Shown: one piece after another, positions 1 to 6,697 of the stretch
Numbering within the stretch: position 1 is the stretch's first letter
Layout: the number at the start of each line of letters is the position of its first letter
DNA from: Clostridia bacterium
GTDB taxonomy: Bacteria; Bacillota; Clostridia; RGIG8785
Length of the DNA stretch: 12,857 nucleotides
NCBI GenBank assembly: GCA_017620795.1
Contig: JAGAUM010000029.1
Span: forward strand, 1 to 12,857
Direction: 5' to 3'
Position numbers and translations under genes: made by a program
Notes under the pieces: model-generated
Seen by the model: only the letters and a program-made list of their open reading frames with translations
Database searches by the model: none
What the model was told of the DNA's origin: nothing

Positions 1-31
1 AGGAATGAAGGGTCAGGGTTTTTAAAATCAT
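1..31 (-). CDS. Start of a probable SbcC/YhaN-type ATPase gene (partial, runs off the window)
   Basis: An ATG at 31-29 overlaps the TGA of the SbcD-like gene in an ATGA arrangement. It opens a frame reading MILKTLTLHS up to the window edge, so only ten codons are visible. A short hydrophobic/basic start of the type M-I-L-K-x-L-x-L-x is typical of SbcC, RecF and YhaN-like ATPases, whose first beta strand leads to the Walker A loop. A partner ATPase is expected directly after an SbcD/YhaO-type nuclease. A purine-rich GGGGTGG lies a few bases upstream of the ATG. The call rests on position, translational overlap and ten residues only; the Walker A motif would lie outside this window. Confidence 0.55.
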   Translation of the reverse strand, partial: MILKTLTLHS

Positions 32-1104
32 TCTTCATCCACCCCTTTCATGGGCTGTTCCAGTAAGGCGGAAAGCCCGAACTGCCTTGCCATGGCATAG
101 GTCTTTTTGGTGGTTTCATCGGTGGCGGAAGCGATTTTCTCATCCGCCATCTTGGCAAACAAGCCGACCAAGGAATAATCGTCAAAGTCCTGGGTCGGGT
201 CTTCTTGATTACACTCGTCAATGCACCTGACGCAATAAAGGTCGGAGAGCTGTTTTACAATGCTCGTGACCGATAAAGGGAACAAGACCCTGCCACGGAG
301 GCGGAGCTTGTACGCATCCTCCGTCCGACCCGAAAGGGTGGCACGGATTTTGTCCACGCAGGCGGCAGTGTGGGTCAACCCCTCCAAATCCACCGTCTGC
401 TCGATATATTGCCGTCCCCACATGGGGAAAAACTCATAAGTGCATTTGCCCTTTTCAAGGTTCAGCATCCAACCGCCCTGCTCGCCCAGCTCGTCAAAGC
501 CTCTGCCGTCAGGGATGCCTGCATAGGCGTAGGTGGTCTTGCCTTCAGTCTTGGGCTCGGTCCGTTTGTGAATGTGACCCAGTGCCACATAGTCCGCACC
601 CGTGTCCGCAAGCTCTTTTGGAGTAAAGGGCATATACTCACTCTCGCTTGCCAGATCTCCGTGGAAAAGCAGGATGTTGAGCTTTTGGGGGTCTTTGACT
701 GAATAGTCGGACAACATCCGTCTCGGTTCAAAGGGCGCAGTAAAGGAAATGCCGTAAACGGTTACGGCGTCCGTTTCAAAGGTGGGGTTGGATTCGTCCA
801 GAAAATGGACATTTTCAGGGAAAGAGGCTTTGCGATAACTGCTTCCTGCACAGGCACAGTCATGATTGCCTGCAATGAGACAGACGGGCACCAAAAGCGC
901 ACCCAGTGCCGAAAAGACCCGATTCGTCAGGGTCTCTGATTCGAAGGGGGTTTCGAACAAATCCCCTGCAATCAGCACCAGCTCTGCTCCTGCCGCAACC
1001 GCGTCGGACAGGCGCGCAAGCAGATGGTCGGCACGCTCCGCTTCCCGAGCAGAACGGTCCAACCGCGAGGTCAGGTGAACATCGGCAATGTGCAAAACCT
1101 TCAT
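28..1104 (-). CDS. SbcD/YhaO-type metallophosphoesterase (DNA repair exonuclease subunit)
   Basis: Predicted Mn-dependent nuclease of the Mre11/SbcD calcineurin-like phosphoesterase family, 358 aa, cytosolic. The metal-binding motifs appear in order: D8-x-H10 (IADVHL), GDLFE at 47-51, GNHD at 79-82, FHGD at 147-150 and GHIH at 176-179. After the catalytic domain (about 1-225) comes a capping region of about 130 residues. Its length and low similarity to classical SbcD suggest the YhaO-like branch. The start at 1104 is chosen because AAGGAG (1112-1117) sits 7 bases upstream; an upstream start at 1131 would have the ribosome binding site inside the gene. The stop overlaps the next start, so it is probably translationally coupled to an ATPase partner, with which such nucleases process DNA ends and hairpins. 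It is separated from polC by the palindromic repeat array. Confidence 0.88.
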   Translation of the reverse strand: MKVLHIADVHLTSRLDRSAREAERADHLLARLSDAVAAGAELVLIAGDLFETPFESETLTNRVFSALGALLVPVCLIAGNHDCACAGSSYRKASFPENVHFLDESNPTFETDAVTVYGISFTAPFEPRRMLSDYSVKDPQKLNILLFHGDLASESEYMPFTPKELADTGADYVALGHIHKRTEPKTEGKTTYAYAGIPDGRGFDELGEQGGWMLNLEKGKCTYEFFPMWGRQYIEQTVDLEGLTHTAACVDKIRATLSGRTEDAYKLRLRGRVLFPLSVTSIVKQLSDLYCVRCIDECNQEDPTQDFDDYSLVGLFAKMADEKIASATDETTKKTYAMARQFGLSALLEQPMKGVDEE

Positions 1105-1122
1105 ATGTTTACTCCTTATTTC

Positions 1123-1150
1123 AAAATACAATAGATTTTTCGCAAATCAA
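1123..1150 (-). promoter_or_regulatory. Weak candidate promoter for the SbcD-like gene
   Basis: Reading the minus strand, TTGATT (1150-1145) and TATTTT (1128-1123) are separated by 16 bp. Each hexamer matches four of six consensus bases. The placement, about 20 bp before the start codon, is plausible. The -35 box lies in repeat copy A at a position where copies B and C differ (AATCAA versus GCCAAG). It is the best candidate in the gap, but weak; read-through from polC is the alternative. Confidence 0.25.
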
Positions 1151-1216
1151 GGCGAGAAGCGAAGCGGTATATGTGATATCCGCGAGCGAATCAACGCAGA
1201 GTTGCGAAAAAGATGC
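1131..1216. repeat. Repeat copy A, diverged palindrome with compensatory changes
   Basis: The arms 1131-1148 and 1199-1216 pair over most of 18 positions. Relative to copies B and C, pair C-G (1248/1307) is A-T here (1144/1203) and pair C-G (1251/1304) is T-A (1147/1200), so both sides changed together. The T·G of B (1244/1311) is a Watson-Crick T-A (1140/1207). The central hairpin is kept as GCGG-TAT / ATA-t-CCGC (1164-1170 with 1176-1183, one bulged T). The outermost arm bases (AT instead of GC) are decayed. Confidence 0.85.
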
Positions 1217-1234
1217 CTACTCTCTTTTAAGGGA

Positions 1235-1320
1235 GCAGATTTTTCGCCAGCCAAGGTGCAAGCGCAAGCGCGTATGCGATACGCGCGAGCATTGCTAACG
1301 AAGGATGGCGGAAAAGATGC
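1235..1320. repeat. Repeat copy B, imperfect palindrome
   Basis: Outer arms 1235-1252 and 1303-1320 pair at 14 of 18 positions by Watson-Crick rules. In the plus-strand sense the exceptions are one G·U, a GA/GA tandem and one G·A. An inner segment GCAA/TTGC (1258-1261 with 1292-1295) and a perfect 8-bp central stem GCGCGTAT/ATACGCGC (1268-1275 with 1279-1286, loop GCG) continue the fold. The whole unit can therefore form one long stem-loop. Confidence 0.88.
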
Positions 1321-1328
1321 CCACTCTC

Positions 1329-1433
1329 TTTTAAGGGTGCAGATTTTTCGCCAGCCAAGGTGCAAGCGCAAGCGCGTATGTGATACGCGCGAGCATTGCT
1401 AACGAAGGATGGCGGAAAAGATGCCCCTTAAAA
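1329..1433. repeat. Repeat copy C, palindrome extending across the polC stop codon
   Basis: The core arms (1339-1356 and 1407-1424) and the 8-bp central stem (1372-1379 with 1383-1390, loop GTG) are the same as in copy B. Here the dyad also extends outward: TTTTAAGGG (1329-1337) is perfectly complementary to CCCTTAAAA (1425-1433), with T1338 unpaired. The right outer arm contains the last polC codon and its TAA stop (1428-1430). The ends therefore read TTAAGGG...CCCTTAA. Confidence 0.85.
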
Positions 1434-4400
1434 CTCGAACATGTTGATTTGACTGCTGTCATGCATCCCCGCAAGACATCCTTGTTGTTCCAGTGTCTCG
1501 ATAACCGACTTGGAGATTTTGGCGCGGACACGCAGGTCGTCTTTGGAGAAGAAAGCCCCTTCCTGACGAGCCGCAACAATGCTATGCGCCGCTGACTCAC
1601 CCACGCCACCTAAGGAGGACAGAGGCGGCAGGATTTTGCCGTCCACCTGAATGAACTTGGTGGCTTCGGAACGGTAGAGGTCGATGGGCAGGAATCGGAA
1701 CCCACGCTCGTACATCTCGATACAGACTTCGAGAGCGGTGATTTTTTCCTTTTCTTTGGCGGTGGCGTCCTCTTTGGCATTGATGTCCGCAATCATGCGG
1801 CGCATCTCGTCGGACGTACCCGTCATGGTGGCGGCATCGAAGGCGTCGGCACGGACAGTCAGGTACGCAGTGTAGAAGTCTAAGGGACGATGCACCTTAA
1901 ACCAAGCGATGCGGAACGCCATGGTAACATACGCCGTTGCATGGGCTTTGGGGAACATATACTTAATCTTGTTACAGGACTCGATATACCACTCGGGAAC
2001 CTCATGCTCGCGCATTAAGGCTTCATCCTCGGGAGTTAAGCCTTTGCCTTTACGCACCTTCTCCATAATCTTGAAGGCAGGCAGGTCGGGCACACCGCAT
2101 TGGATTAAGTAGAGCATGATATCGTCACGGGTACAGATGACCTTCGACAGGGGCGCAACACCCGTATTGACCAGAGTCTGGGCGTTGTTCAGCCAAACGT
2201 CGGTACCGTGGGACAGTCCACTGATGCGAACCAGCTCCGAATAGGTGGTGGGGCGGGTATCGCAAAGCATCTGACGGACGAAGGAGGTACCGAACTCGGG
2301 CACTGCATAGGTGCCTACCTCACTGCCTATTTGCTCGGGCGTGACACCTAAAGCCTCGGTGGAGGTAAAGATGCTCATGGTCTCTTTGTCGTCCAAAGAG
2401 ATGGTGGTGGCATCCATGCCCGTTAAGTCTTCTAACATCTTAATCATGGTCGGGTCATCGTGACCCAGAATATCCAGCTTGAGCATTCTGCCGGAGATGG
2501 AATGGTAGTCGAAGTGGGTGGTGATGGAGTCAGCGCTCATGTCGTTGGCAGGCTTCTGGATGGGGCAGAAGTCGAAAATGTTCTTATACCGCGGTACAAC
2601 CATGATGCCGCCAGGGTGCTGACCCGTGGTCTTTTTAATGCCTGCACAGCCCTGAACCAAACGGTTTAATTCTGCGTTGTGAACCACCTGACCCTTTTCC
2701 TCGAAGTATTTCTTGACATAGCCGTAAGCAGTCTTGTCCGCTAACGTGGAGATGGTACCTGCGCGGTAGACGTTGCCCTCGCCGAACAGAACCTCGGTGT
2801 ACTTGTGGGCGTTGGCTTGGTACTCACCACTGAAGTTCAGGTCGATATCAGGCTCTTTGTCACCGTCGAAGCCCAAGAAGGTCTCGAAAGGAATGTCATG
2901 GCCGTCTTTTTTGTAGGGAGTGCCACATTGGGGGCAGGTCTTATCGGGCAGGTCAAAGCCGCTGCCGTAGACCCCGTCGGTAATGAACTCGCTATGTTTA
3001 CAGTTGGGGCAGATGTAGTGAGGGCAGAGGGAGTTTACTTCGGTAATCCCCGTTAAGTAGGCAACAAAGGAGGACCCGACCGAACCTCGGGAGCCGACCA
3101 TGTAGCCGTCTTCCAAAGACTTTTTAACCAGTCGCTCTGCAATGATGTACATGACCGAGAAGCCGTTCTTGATGATGGAGGTCAGCTCCCGATCCATACG
3201 GGTTTTAACCATTTCGGGCAGGGGCGAGCCGTAAATCCGCTCGGCACGCTCGATACTCTTCTGCTCGATTTCCTCCTCCGCTCCGTCGATTTTCGGGGGG
3301 AAGGTGCCGTCGGGAATGGGCTTTAAGTCCTCAATCATGTCGGCAATCAAATTGGTGTTGGTGATGACGATTTCCTTCGCCTTCTCCTCGCCCAGATAAG
3401 CAAATTCCGCAAGCATCTGCTCGGTGTTACGGAAGAAGAGCGGTGCTTGCTGGTCCGCATCGTCAAAGCCCATGCCTTTCATGATGATGCGGCGGAAAAC
3501 CTCGTCACGGGCGTCTAAGAAGTGGACGTCGCAGGTGGCGACAACCGGCTTTTGATACTGCTCACCCAAGGCAACAATCTTTCGGACGATGTTCTTTAAC
3601 CCCTCGGTGTCCATCTGTCCGTTACGGACCATGAACTCGTTATTTCCCAGAGGCTGAACCTCGTAATAGTCATAAAACTGCGCCAAAGCGCGAATCCGCT
3701 CCGCAGGGGCTTGGTGCAAGAAGGCTTGGTAAAGCTCCCCTGCCTCACAGGCAGAGCCGATTAAGAGTCCGTCGCGGTGCTGCAAGAACAGGTGCTTGGG
3801 CACACGGGGACGCTTGTGATAGTACTTTAAGTGGGACTCGGAAATAATCTGGTAGAGATTCTTCATGCCCACCATGTCCTTGACTAAAATGATGGCATGG
3901 AAGGTGTTTTTGTTCCGCACATCATCGGGGTTGCGGAGGGTGTCAATCTCGTCTAAGGTCTCAATATCCTTTTCTTTTAACCGCTCCACCAGCTTAAAGA
4001 AGATGCCTGCGGTGGCTTCCGCATCGTCACAGGCACGGTGATGGTTCTCCAACGAAACACCCAGATGCTCGGCAACCAGGTTGAGCTTATGGCGCTTTAA
4101 CTCGGGCAGGAGCATGCGGGACAGCTCCAAGGTATCCACGATGGGGTGCTCGAAAGGCAGACCCAGACGGAAAGCGGCATAGCGAACAAACCCCGTATCA
4201 AAGGGGGCGTTGTGGGCGACCAAGACCGCGTCTTTACAGAACTCCAAGAACTCGGGCAGGACCGTTTCGATGGACGGAGCGTCTGCCACCATCTCGTTTG
4301 AGATGCCCGTCAGCTCGGTGATTTTGGCAGGGATTTCTTTGGAGGGTTTTACGAACTGGGAGAAACGGTCGATAACCTCGCCGTTTTTGGTCTTGACCGC

Positions 4401-5645
4401 GCCGATTTCAATGATTTCTTCATGGGCGGCAGTCAGACCTGTGGTCTCTAAGTCAAAGACCACGAAGGTATCGTCAAAGGTACGGCTCTCCCCTGCGCTG
4501 ACCGCAGGTGCCGCATCCTCGTCTACTAAATAGCACTCGACCCCGTAGAGGATTTTGATGCCGTGTTTCTTTCCTGCATCCATGGCGTCGGGGAAGGCTT
4601 GTACCACACCGTGGTCGGTGACGGCGATGGCTTTGTGTCCCCAAGCGGCGGCACGGGCAACAATGTCTTTGATTTCAGAAACGCCGTCCATGGCGCTCAT
4701 CTTACTGTGGACATGGAGCTCCACACGCTTTTCGGGGGCATCGTCGGTGGTGACCCAGGGGTCTTTGATTTTCATCATATCGTCTAAAAGAACCACCAGC
4801 TCCCGCTCGTACTTATCGTACTGGGCAGAACCGCGGATGCGCAGAACCATGCCTTTTTTCAGCTTCTCGGCAATACGGCTGACCGACTCACTGCGGTCGA
4901 GCATCTTGACGGTCATCGACCCTGTATAGTCGGTCACGTCAAACTTTAAGAGCTTCCGCCCGCCACGGAGGTCACGGTCCTCAATGGAAAAGACCCGACC
5001 GATGAAGGACACCCGACCCGACGCCTCACTGATGGACGAGATAGGCTCTACCTTCTCGGGGATTTCCTTGCCGTATAAGACCTGCTCGTCCCCTTTGGGA
5101 GCGCTTTCCTCCTGCATCTTGCGAACCGCTTCCTTCTCCACTTCCGCCTGATGCTGCAAAAAAGCTTCGGCATCGAAGGTTTTGGTGCTTTCAAACCGCA
5201 CACCGATGCTCATGCCCAGCTCGTTGGCAATCAGCTCGGAAATGGCGGTGGTGTACCGCTCACTGTTAAAGAGCTCGCACCCGTTGCCTGCGTGAATCAG
5301 CAACCGTCCGCCTGTCACTTCGGCAGTACTGTCTGCCAACAAGGCTTCGGAGGCAGGGAGCATGGTATATAACAAAGGCTTTAACGCCTGATAATAAGCA
5401 TCGTCTAAAGACACGCCCTCAAAGCTCAGCTGTGCCGAGACCTCGGACAGGCGGTAGGTGCGCTTAATGTCGCTCTGCATGCGAAGGAGCAGGGCGCGGT
5501 CAATCAATGCCCCAAAGTGGAATTTTAAAACCACACTCCGCTTCTCGGCATTGACTAAAACCTGTTCCAGCTTGCCTTGGTTTAACAGGTCAATATAAGG
5601 GGAAAAGGACATTTCCTTGAAAATTTCGGGTAAACTCTTGCTCAT
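1428..5645 (-). CDS. polC: DNA polymerase III alpha subunit, Gram-positive type PolC
   Basis: Replicative DNA polymerase with built-in 3'-5' proofreading, 1405 aa, close to the usual PolC length. Order: N-terminal domain (about 1-180); OB fold (about 200-295); first part of the PHP domain (HVHS 311-314, VTDHG 342-346); DEDDh exonuclease inserted in PHP (D398, E400, D483, H536, D541; about 392-556); second part of PHP; polymerase core. The core shows the GSRGSVGSSF loop (851-860), a CxxC...CxxC zinc site (C879, C882, C904, C907) and catalytic aspartates D933, D935 and D1058. The protein ends in QINMF (1399-1403), matching the C-terminal beta-clamp-binding motif of PolC. The ATG at 5645 overlaps the ispG TGA by 4 bp; GGAGG lies at 5659-5663, a rather long 13 bases away. 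The in-frame extension to 5819 is rejected because it is antisense-like basic sequence inside ispG. The stop lies within repeat copy C. Confidence 0.98.
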   Translation of the reverse strand: MSKSLPEIFKEMSFSPYIDLLNQGKLEQVLVNAEKRSVVLKFHFGALIDRALLLRMQSDIKRTYRLSEVSAQLSFEGVSLDDAYYQALKPLLYTMLPASEALLADSTAEVTGGRLLIHAGNGCELFNSERYTTAISELIANELGMSIGVRFESTKTFDAEAFLQHQAEVEKEAVRKMQEESAPKGDEQVLYGKEIPEKVEPISSISEASGRVSFIGRVFSIEDRDLRGGRKLLKFDVTDYTGSMTVKMLDRSESVSRIAEKLKKGMVLRIRGSAQYDKYERELVVLLDDMMKIKDPWVTTDDAPEKRVELHVHSKMSAMDGVSEIKDIVARAAAWGHKAIAVTDHGVVQAFPDAMDAGKKHGIKILYGVECYLVDEDAAPAVSAGESRTFDDTFVVFDLETTGLTAAHEEIIEIGAVKTKNGEVIDRFSQFVKPSKEIPAKITELTGISNEMVADAPSIETVLPEFLEFCKDAVLVAHNAPFDTGFVRYAAFRLGLPFEHPIVDTLELSRMLLPELKRHKLNLVAEHLGVSLENHHRACDDAEATAGIFFKLVERLKEKDIETLDEIDTLRNPDDVRNKNTFHAIILVKDMVGMKNLYQIISESHLKYYHKRPRVPKHLFLQHRDGLLIGSACEAGELYQAFLHQAPAERIRALAQFYDYYEVQPLGNNEFMVRNGQMDTEGLKNIVRKIVALGEQYQKPVVATCDVHFLDARDEVFRRIIMKGMGFDDADQQAPLFFRNTEQMLAEFAYLGEEKAKEIVITNTNLIADMIEDLKPIPDGTFPPKIDGAEEEIEQKSIERAERIYGSPLPEMVKTRMDRELTSIIKNGFSVMYIIAERLVKKSLEDGYMVGSRGSVGSSFVAYLTGITEVNSLCPHYICPNCKHSEFITDGVYGSGFDLPDKTCPQCGTPYKKDGHDIPFETFLGFDGDKEPDIDLNFSGEYQANAHKYTEVLFGEGNVYRAGTISTLADKTAYGYVKKYFEEKGQVVHNAELNRLVQGCAGIKKTTGQHPGGIMVVPRYKNIFDFCPIQKPANDMSADSITTHFDYHSISGRMLKLDILGHDDPTMIKMLEDLTGMDATTISLDDKETMSIFTSTEALGVTPEQIGSEVGTYAVPEFGTSFVRQMLCDTRPTTYSELVRISGLSHGTDVWLNNAQTLVNTGVAPLSKVICTRDDIMLYLIQCGVPDLPAFKIMEKVRKGKGLTPEDEALMREHEVPEWYIESCNKIKYMFPKAHATAYVTMAFRIAWFKVHRPLDFYTAYLTVRADAFDAATMTGTSDEMRRMIADINAKEDATAKEKEKITALEVCIEMYERGFRFLPIDLYRSEATKFIQVDGKILPPLSSLGGVGESAAHSIVAARQEGAFFSKDDLRVRAKISKSVIETLEQQGCLAGMHDSSQINMFEF

Positions 5646-6697
5646 AACTTCTTTCGTTCCTCCGCCAGTTTTAACACACGCTCTACAAATGCTTCTGCAA
5701 GCCCGTCCTCGGGCAGTTTTCCTGCAATCTCGCCATGATAGAATAACAACGCTTCGCCCTTTCCGCAGGCGATGCCGATATCCGCTTCCCGCGCTTCTCC
5801 GGGGCCGTTGACGGCACAACCCATCACGGCTACATGCAAGGGTACGTCAACGGTGCGGATTTGTTCATAGATTTTTTGGGCGATGGGCACCAAGTCCACC
5901 TGACAGCGTCCGCAGGTGGGACAGGACACGAACCGAAGGCCCTTGCGCTGCTCCAATAAGCGGAGCAGGGCGATACCCGTGTGGACTTCTTCTACGGGGT
6001 CGTCGGTTAAAGAGACACGCAGGGTGTCGCCAATCCCTTCGGACAGTAAGGTGCCGATGCCGATGCCTGCCGCCAGTGTCCCCTGCCACTTGGTCCCTGC
6101 CTCGGTCACACCGATGTGCAAGGGGTAGTCGGTCAGTTGGGACATCCGCCGATAGGCTTCAATGGTTAGGGGTACGGAGGAGGCTTTTAGGGACAGGACA
6201 ATGTCCGTAAAGTCCGCCTGCTCCAAGAGCTTTACTTGTCTTAAGGCGCTTTCGGTCATGGCTTCAGCACAGGGGTGGCCGTAGCGCTCTAACAGTTCCT
6301 TTTCCAAAGAACCACCGTTGATGCCGATACGGATGGGGATGCCCGCTTTCCGCGCGGCTACTGCTACGGCACGGACGTTCTCGTCCGCTCCGATGTTGCC
6401 GGGGTTGATGCGGATTTTGTCAATCCCACGCTCGATGCACATTAAAGCCAAGCGATAGTCAAAATGGATGTCTGCCACCAAGGGCATGTCGGTTTGTTCA
6501 CGGATTTGGGCAATGGCAAGTGCCGCCTCCTCGTTGGGAATGGCGAGGCGCACAATATCACACCCTGCCGCCTCCAAGGCGCGGATCTGGGCAACGGTTG
6601 CGGCAACATCCGCCGTGGGGGTGTTGGTCATGGACTGCACCGTCACGGGCGCGCCGCCACCGATAAGCAAATTTCTTACCTTTACCTGTTTTGTCAT
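5642..6697 (-). CDS. ispG: 4-hydroxy-3-methylbut-2-en-1-yl diphosphate synthase (MEP pathway)
   Basis: IspG (GcpE) is a [4Fe-4S] enzyme that reductively converts methylerythritol cyclodiphosphate to HMBPP, the penultimate MEP step, in the cytosol. The 351 aa fit the short bacterial form. A TIM-barrel-like N-terminal domain carries VTVQSMTNT (18-26) and the RINPGNIG loop (96-103). The C-terminal cluster domain shows SCPTCGRC (258-265; C259 and C262 as ligands) and GCAVNGPGEA (293-302; C294 as the third ligand, E301 as the conserved glutamate). The ATG at 6697 is preferred over a TTG at 6712 because GGAG (6707-6710), inside the 3' end of rseP, sits 9 bases before the ATG, whereas the TTG overlaps it. 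Five bases separate it from rseP, and its stop overlaps polC. With dxr three genes earlier in the cluster, it makes this a partial MEP-pathway operon. Confidence 0.97.
   Translation of the reverse strand: MTKQVKVRNLLIGGGAPVTVQSMTNTPTADVAATVAQIRALEAAGCDIVRLAIPNEEAALAIAQIREQTDMPLVADIHFDYRLALMCIERGIDKIRINPGNIGADENVRAVAVAARKAGIPIRIGINGGSLEKELLERYGHPCAEAMTESALRQVKLLEQADFTDIVLSLKASSVPLTIEAYRRMSQLTDYPLHIGVTEAGTKWQGTLAAGIGIGTLLSEGIGDTLRVSLTDDPVEEVHTGIALLRLLEQRKGLRFVSCPTCGRCQVDLVPIAQKIYEQIRTVDVPLHVAVMGCAVNGPGEAREADIGIACGKGEALLFYHGEIAGKLPEDGLAEAFVERVLKLAEERKKL

Follow-up and report, generated by a model that had tools for sequence, protein, structure and literature searches.

Integron attC sites are imperfect palindromes that act in the form of a folded single strand and are recognised via their unpaired bases. 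Palindromes of the REP, BIME and REPIN type (GTAG and CGTC palindromes, RAYT) are extragenic and dispersed, change their stems by complementary substitutions and stand in inverted pairs and in groups. Among the Gammaproteobacteria, Coxiella carries the MITEs QMITE1 and QMITE2, which form long hairpins and are often in contact with the 3' ends of genes; their direct repeats are of variable sequence (2-3 nt for QMITE1, 7-11 nt for QMITE2), and QMITE2 contains a GTAG REP (PMC5896051). The gammaproteobacterial genome of Thiomargarita contains large MITE hairpins as well as unidentified families of palindromes, and one of its MITEs has a TATAG end and a hairpin that is part of a group I intron (PMC4853749).

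The array described here lies in a genome of the Clostridia (Bacillota). The window, that is the whole stretch of 12,857 nucleotides analysed, comes from contig C94 of a 1.2-Mb draft genome with 253 contigs and 63% completeness. A preliminary description had reported three tandem palindromes of 86 bp with an exact 104-bp period after polC, and their number, period and positions all proved correct (Table 1); their strand is named by reading the AAGGCG side first. The three palindromes fill the space between the polC stop codon, on the minus strand, and the start of a phosphoesterase gene near 1105, which is accompanied by a ribosome-binding-site-like AAGGAG. The listed polC ORF overshoots the gene at its 5' end, and a PolC of the Gram-positive type is what a member of Bacillota would have. 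DNA hairpins are a substrate cut by SbcD-type nucleases, and an SbcD/Mre11-like phosphoesterase adjoins the palindromes here, perhaps by coincidence. The sequence of the window alone could not reveal that the unit is the core hairpin of larger elements, that these have relatives in Gammaproteobacteria, or that the ends of those relatives resemble IS1182. Copy C already exceeds the 86 bp described earlier, as the two outer arms that flank it pair with each other.

Table 1. Positions of the hairpin array and its neighbouring genes in the window
Feature	Position	Strand	Evidence or remark
Copy A, diverged core hairpin	1131..1216	+	R3 match 1126-1219 (+), 90.6 bits
Copy B, core hairpin	1235..1320	+	R3 match 1230-1323 (+), 85.6 bits
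Copy C, core hairpin	1339..1424	+	R3 match 1334-1427 (+), 79.7 bits
A-B linker, CTACTCTCTTTTAAGGGA	1217..1234	+	2/18 bases differ from B-C linker
B-C linker, CCACTCTCTTTTAAGGGT	1321..1338	+	
Outer stem of copy C, left arm, TTTTAAGGG	1329..1337	+	Fold of 1317-1442
Outer stem of copy C, right arm, CCCTTAAAA	1425..1433	+	Fold; holds polC stop codon
polC, PolC-type DNA polymerase III, Gram-positive type	1428..5819	-	NF001688, 1850 bits
polC stop codon	1428-1430	-	Inside right outer arm of copy C
Calcineurin-like phosphoesterase ORF, SbcD/Mre11-like	28..1131	-	PF00149 above cut-off; SbcD models below cut-offs

Copies B and C agree at 85 of 86 bases, and the sole difference (C at 1277, T at 1381) is in the central loop, as had been noted before. 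The two linkers are nearly alike though A is far from B, which points to one recent 104-bp duplication of linker plus core. Most simply, B and C are the products of this single tandem duplication, and therefore they are not two independent witnesses. Copy A can be compared with B in ungapped register only in the outer arms, and 44 of the 86 bases are identical without gaps. Five of the 15 outer pairs have changed between A and B; four of these still pair, two of them through a double change (C1248-G1307 in B is A1144-T1203 in A, and C1251-G1304 is T1147-A1200). Both double changes had been claimed in the preliminary description, together with the flip of the mismatch G.A 1250/1305 to A.G 1146/1201 and the replacement of T.G 1244/1311 by a full T-A pair at 1140/1207, and each was verified in the sequence. 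The outermost pair is lost in A, where GC at 1235-1320 is replaced by AC at 1131-1216. When equal numbers of substitutions were placed at random in 100,000 trials, as many pairs were kept in 0.55% of them and as many double changes arose in 3.1%. The paired changes in the three window copies alone are suggestive but weak evidence for a kept fold (P about 0.03), and thus the case is carried by the family alignments A7 and A9 presented below. Folded as RNA, B and C reach -39.9 kcal/mol, a stability equalled by none of 200 shuffles, and A reaches -25 kcal/mol (z -2.57), equalled by two of 200.

The genome of the window contains six copies in total, three in the window and one each on contigs C122, C233 and C252. 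The copy on C122 was found by DNA search and those on C233 and C252 were added by model R3. The latter two have different gene surroundings and share 284 bp with 93% identity; this common stretch has inverted ends, and its folded part contains the window-type hairpin. About 133 bp of the C122 copy are shared with C233/C252, at 84% identity. Terminal repeats are not recognisable at the window copies themselves. The C122 copy is placed between a match to a PyrR binding site, upstream, and an ORF, downstream, which by eye we take to be dihydroorotase (pyrC). The PyrR match, at L004:1629-1743 on the minus strand and upstream of the pyrC-like ORF, falls just below the cut-off (50.3 bits versus 54).

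Five sequences went into model R3: copies A and B of the window, the copy on C122, and a single copy from each of genomes G518 and G404. Of 391 genomes in the class, 81 had matches to this model (E<=0.01 per genome, with about 4 expected by chance), as had 52 of 318 among the better assemblies; the copy numbers so obtained are lower bounds, since the best 10 candidates per genome were scored. The search for further copies that the preliminary description had called for was therefore productive both in this genome and in its class. The test it had proposed, whether arm changes are paired more often than expected, gave values far above those of shuffled alignments. Alignment A9 comprises all 48 matches in 41 sources, a set of sources from which the near-identical G029 copies and some duplicates had been left out. 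Standard pairs make up 93.2% of its pair cells, double changes occur in 14 of 15 pairs, and none of 500 shuffles was as high; double-change cells number 136 versus 31.9 in shuffles. Sliding one arm by 1-3 columns lowered pairing to 40-64%, in an alignment that was fitted to the structure of the model and so leans towards that structure.

Whole elements of this type could be delimited in several genomes. Genome G029 has seven near-identical copies of 277-278 bp between unrelated flanks, with TA at both ends in all seven, and in several Bacillota genomes the core is part of a larger fold-back that has inverted ends and contains another hairpin. At two of the loci inspected, L122 and L135, the terminal stem encloses two window-type cores that face opposite ways, which makes a three-way junction. 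Genome G608 carries two full cores in tandem, 106 bp apart, after part of a third, with TTTTAAA linkers, and the G518 core sits in an insert within another palindromic element, which also occurs without the insert. Near the G404 element there is a TPP riboswitch (L071:1361-1465, minus strand, 69.9 bits, above cut-off). At L180:1501 and L187:1501, also in Bacillota, the end of a long ORF falls within the TAG of an element's terminal repeat or directly in front of it, and the element may supply the stop codon of these ORFs.

A shorter relative was found in Gammaproteobacteria. A pattern from the 3' half of the window, scanned over a genome collection, matched nine stretches, which is about the chance number on a rough estimate, and only the one in Marinobacterium arenosum was a dispersed palindrome, its host genome giving 14 matches at E<=0.01 and 19 at E<=10. 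Model R1, built from 15 Marinobacterium copies, matched 46 of 229 Gammaproteobacteria genomes (E<=0.001), and 15 of the 46 had at least 10 matches among the best 21 candidates scored per genome. An entire element of this type is one nested hairpin, about 165 bp long. CTAG bounds the element on both sides in 9 of 21 loci and on one side only in 8, and is absent from the ends in the other 4 (one right end being lost at a contig edge). In alignment A7 (35 copies at E<=1e-7, leaving out five antisense rows of A6), 95.9% of pairs are standard and 19 of 21 pairs show double changes, with none of 500 shuffles as high. Some of these elements are enlarged by the apparent insertion of other palindromes (L156:552-820, L162:667-1020, L166:982-1300), and hairpins of about 60-75 bp that are almost only terminal repeats also exist (L148:1497-1567, L151:1217-1276, L153:973-1033, L160:1915-1989). 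On nine contigs of genome G135 (C5, C28, C34, C50, C61, C63, C70, C72 and C76) many copies lie about 30-40 bp from contig ends; the repeats thus probably break assemblies and are undercounted.

The types from the two phyla recognise each other in sequence models. Over 79 kb, the three best R1 matches were window copies B (25.2 bits), C (20.9 bits) and A (20.3 bits), followed by an unrelated locus (16.5 bits) and the C122 copy (14.9 bits). R3 applied to 35 gammaproteobacterial loci gave 30 sense matches in register (23 at E<=0.01), one antisense match and five other matches off register, versus none of eight control loci. The gamma-only model R2 gave 18 sense matches (only six at E<=0.01), one antisense and two off register on 39 Bacillota copies. 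When the class was scanned under stricter filters, R2 had matches in 4 of 291 genomes, the best in G404 (4e-5), and missed the genome of the window; two of these four genomes (loci L073 and L074) look AT-rich and were not counted as members of the family. Two motifs without complementarity are common to both phyla, namely GAG(n)C before the first stem with G(A)CC after it, and AAGGC or GAGGC opposite TTAACGnA. The cross-phylum scores are modest, and the tests are partly circular, since the Marinobacterium locus was fetched with the window pattern and R3 includes G404 and G518, found by R2. On balance, the Bacillota and gammaproteobacterial elements are likely of common origin, a conclusion in which we have considerable confidence.

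Paired substitutions may also arise with no selection on the fold. Long palindromes are prone to arm-to-arm correction, and template switching or copying from arm to arm could keep the arms of plain MITEs complementary as a mutational artefact. In Marinobacterium whole arms do differ together between copies of one genome, in agreement with such a process, and mean conservation is similar in unpaired and paired columns, being no higher in the unpaired ones (1.21 versus 1.30 bits in A7, 0.93 versus 0.98 in A9). However, such correction would be expected to erase the mismatched loops as well, but a single base accounts for at least 85% of the copies in 14 of the 33 unpaired columns of A7 and in 17 of the 64 of A9. 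Moreover, the motifs that recur in both phyla are not complementary, and the models prefer one strand, by 30:1 for R3 and 18:1 for R2. As the antisense strand has the same pairs, this preference lies in the unpaired letters. We consider it rather unlikely that arm-to-arm copying explains the family.

Alternatively, the hairpins may have their function in RNA, for example by stabilising 3' UTRs or by attenuation between polC and the phosphoesterase gene, with selection on the RNA keeping the pairs. The window palindromes fold strongly, many copies are close to gene ends and G-U pairs are common in A7 and A9, all of which would suit an RNA; strong folding is seen on both strands. In Coxiella, transcripts of MITEs and MITE-derived sRNAs are described (PMC5896051). 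However, an RNA role predicts a fixed strand relative to genes, and none is consistent: on naive ORF calls, 16 of 22 codirectional cases in Bacillota have the element opposite to the genes (P 0.05), and 11 of 16 in Gammaproteobacteria have it on the same strand (P 0.21). Relative to the genes, the named strand is the antisense one in the window and also at the copy on C122. The preliminary description could not match the repeat to a named RNA family, and neither did a scan of the window and 12 further loci with Rfam gathering scores, which argues in the same direction; on the window only sub-threshold, chance-like matches appeared, at 1000-1500. A transcript-level function is, in our judgement, improbable.

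The ends of the elements point to a means of movement. A gammaproteobacterial end used as query gave a weak match (E 3) on a Mesorhizobium plasmid, which led to an IS1182 element whose 18-base ends, CTAGCAGCCTGTCGGACT, are exact inverted repeats and enclose an ORF matching the NCBIfam IS1182-family transposase NF033551 (E 3.1e-105). Ends of the form CTAG[GC]AG..TGTC were present in five of eight IS1182 elements inspected (Mesorhizobium, Marinobacter, Methylobacter, Aromatoleum and the Bacillota member Alicyclobacillus); the ends of the Thermaerobacter element differ, and two elements have no visible ends of this kind. Over 20 bases, the end of the gammaproteobacterial element L051, CTAGGAGTCTGTCGGACTTA, is the left end of the Methylobacter IS1182. 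Since their ends match, the gammaproteobacterial elements are probably moved in trans by IS1182-family DDE transposases, to judge from elements that in no inspected case share a genome with the gamma elements tested. The ends of the Bacillota elements differ from these, and no transposase was tied to them. Among 20 gammaproteobacterial and 10 Bacillota single-end loci, no autonomous copy with an end pair around a transposase was seen, and none of five ORFs from such loci that were scanned against families was a transposase. At these loci end pairs with two mismatches occur 1-2 kb apart, and nested insertions and short end-only hairpins are present.

As in MITEs, the elements are short, non-coding and dispersed (about 165 bp in Gammaproteobacteria, 277-284 bp in Bacillota), and terminal inverted repeats are found in the gammaproteobacterial, the G029 and the C233/C252 elements. 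The CTAG and TA at the ends of gammaproteobacterial and G029 elements respectively, read at loci without empty sites, may be duplicated target bases or part of the repeat. In nucleotide searches of phage and plasmid collections, the window array and the C233/C252 element had no matches; the whole gammaproteobacterial element had none in phages and one in plasmids, restricted to the core, in Pseudomonas sp. MPC6. On viral contigs the first pattern matched two stretches, which were rejected as they fold without such a palindrome, and three later patterns matched zero, two and two stretches by sequence pattern only. Carriage of the family by phages is not supported by these searches, in which exact patterns miss variants.

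A system of the REP/BIME type, moved by a Y1 (RAYT) transposase that recognises single-strand hairpins, was also considered. Inverted ends that carry CTAG or TA on both sides are easier to reconcile with a DDE enzyme than with a Y1 enzyme, and the match of the gammaproteobacterial ends to IS1182 is likewise at odds with it. Cores of 75-95 nt have no unpaired terminal GTAG or CGTC tag at the hairpin base, and the letters GTAG occur inside the gammaproteobacterial elements. As for REPs, there are extragenic palindromes with conserved unpaired motifs, in inverted pairs and tandem groups; the units of 75-165 bp compare with 20-40 bp for a REP (PMC3733652). We regard this origin as very unlikely.

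We favour, with moderate confidence, the reading that the window palindromes are cores of mobile-looking, non-coding foldback (MITE-like) elements whose fold is kept. Copies of the core are scattered over this genome and over many others, nearly identical copies have unrelated sequence on either side, and the stems covary while a set of unpaired loop positions stays fixed. IS1182-family DDE transposases would move the gammaproteobacterial elements in trans, and a related enzyme may move those of Bacillota. The folded strand, as a cruciform or a single-stranded hairpin, would be read together with its fixed loops by a protein, for mobility or for persistence, and under such reading the stems could drift only in pairs; recognition of a folded DNA strand by a protein would be the best-fitting reason for the kept fold. 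In the window, an element or core may have landed at the 3' end of polC, with its outer arm overlapping the stop codon, and linker plus core would later have been duplicated in tandem, A being the older, diverged core. The preliminary description raised two possibilities, a fold kept during divergence or a copy A from a different lineage within one structured family; these data agree with both and support them.

It is possible, and we put it forward tentatively, that there is one ancient family of mobile hairpins, with members in Bacillota and Gammaproteobacteria at the least, and that what it conserves is the folded nucleic acid itself. Its fixed internal loops (GAGnC opposite G(A)CC, and AAGGC or GAGGC opposite AACGnA) would be a protein-binding architecture set on stems that covary freely, between terminal repeats of DDE (IS1182-type) transposons. 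If true, this would be a DDE-transposon derivative with an interior fold under selection across phyla. MITEs are usually seen as ends plus filler; in the present elements, what lies between the ends seems to be conserved as a fold even between phyla. Whether the internal loops of the folded strand are read by a protein, be it a transposase or a nuclease like SbcCD that acts on hairpins, is a testable question.

The family is apparently large and unnamed, and the window holds a small tandem array of its cores. Copies occur in roughly one in five of the genomes sampled from two bacterial classes (81/391 and 46/229), yet it has no Rfam family, and it accounts for hairpin arrays met at gene ends. 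A literature search found no description of it; most subscription papers and ISfinder were outside its scope, and an earlier description there is possible. With integron attC sites the likeness is one of principle only. The gammaproteobacterial elements resemble IS1182 insertion sequences and derived MITEs in their ends; unlike the insertion sequences, they are non-coding, and their interior is a nested hairpin with conserved loops. The present elements share the extragenic, dispersed occurrence, the complementary stem changes and the paired or grouped arrangement of REP, BIME and REPIN sequences, but they far exceed these in length and differ in having terminal inverted repeats as well as several internal loops. 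Compared by description, the MITE hairpins of Thiomargarita also belong to a gammaproteobacterial genome and differ in the TATAG end and the intron hairpin of one MITE (PMC4853749). The long MITE hairpins of Coxiella, likewise gammaproteobacterial and often in contact with gene 3' ends, are set apart from the present family by their direct repeats and, in QMITE2, a GTAG REP (PMC5896051).
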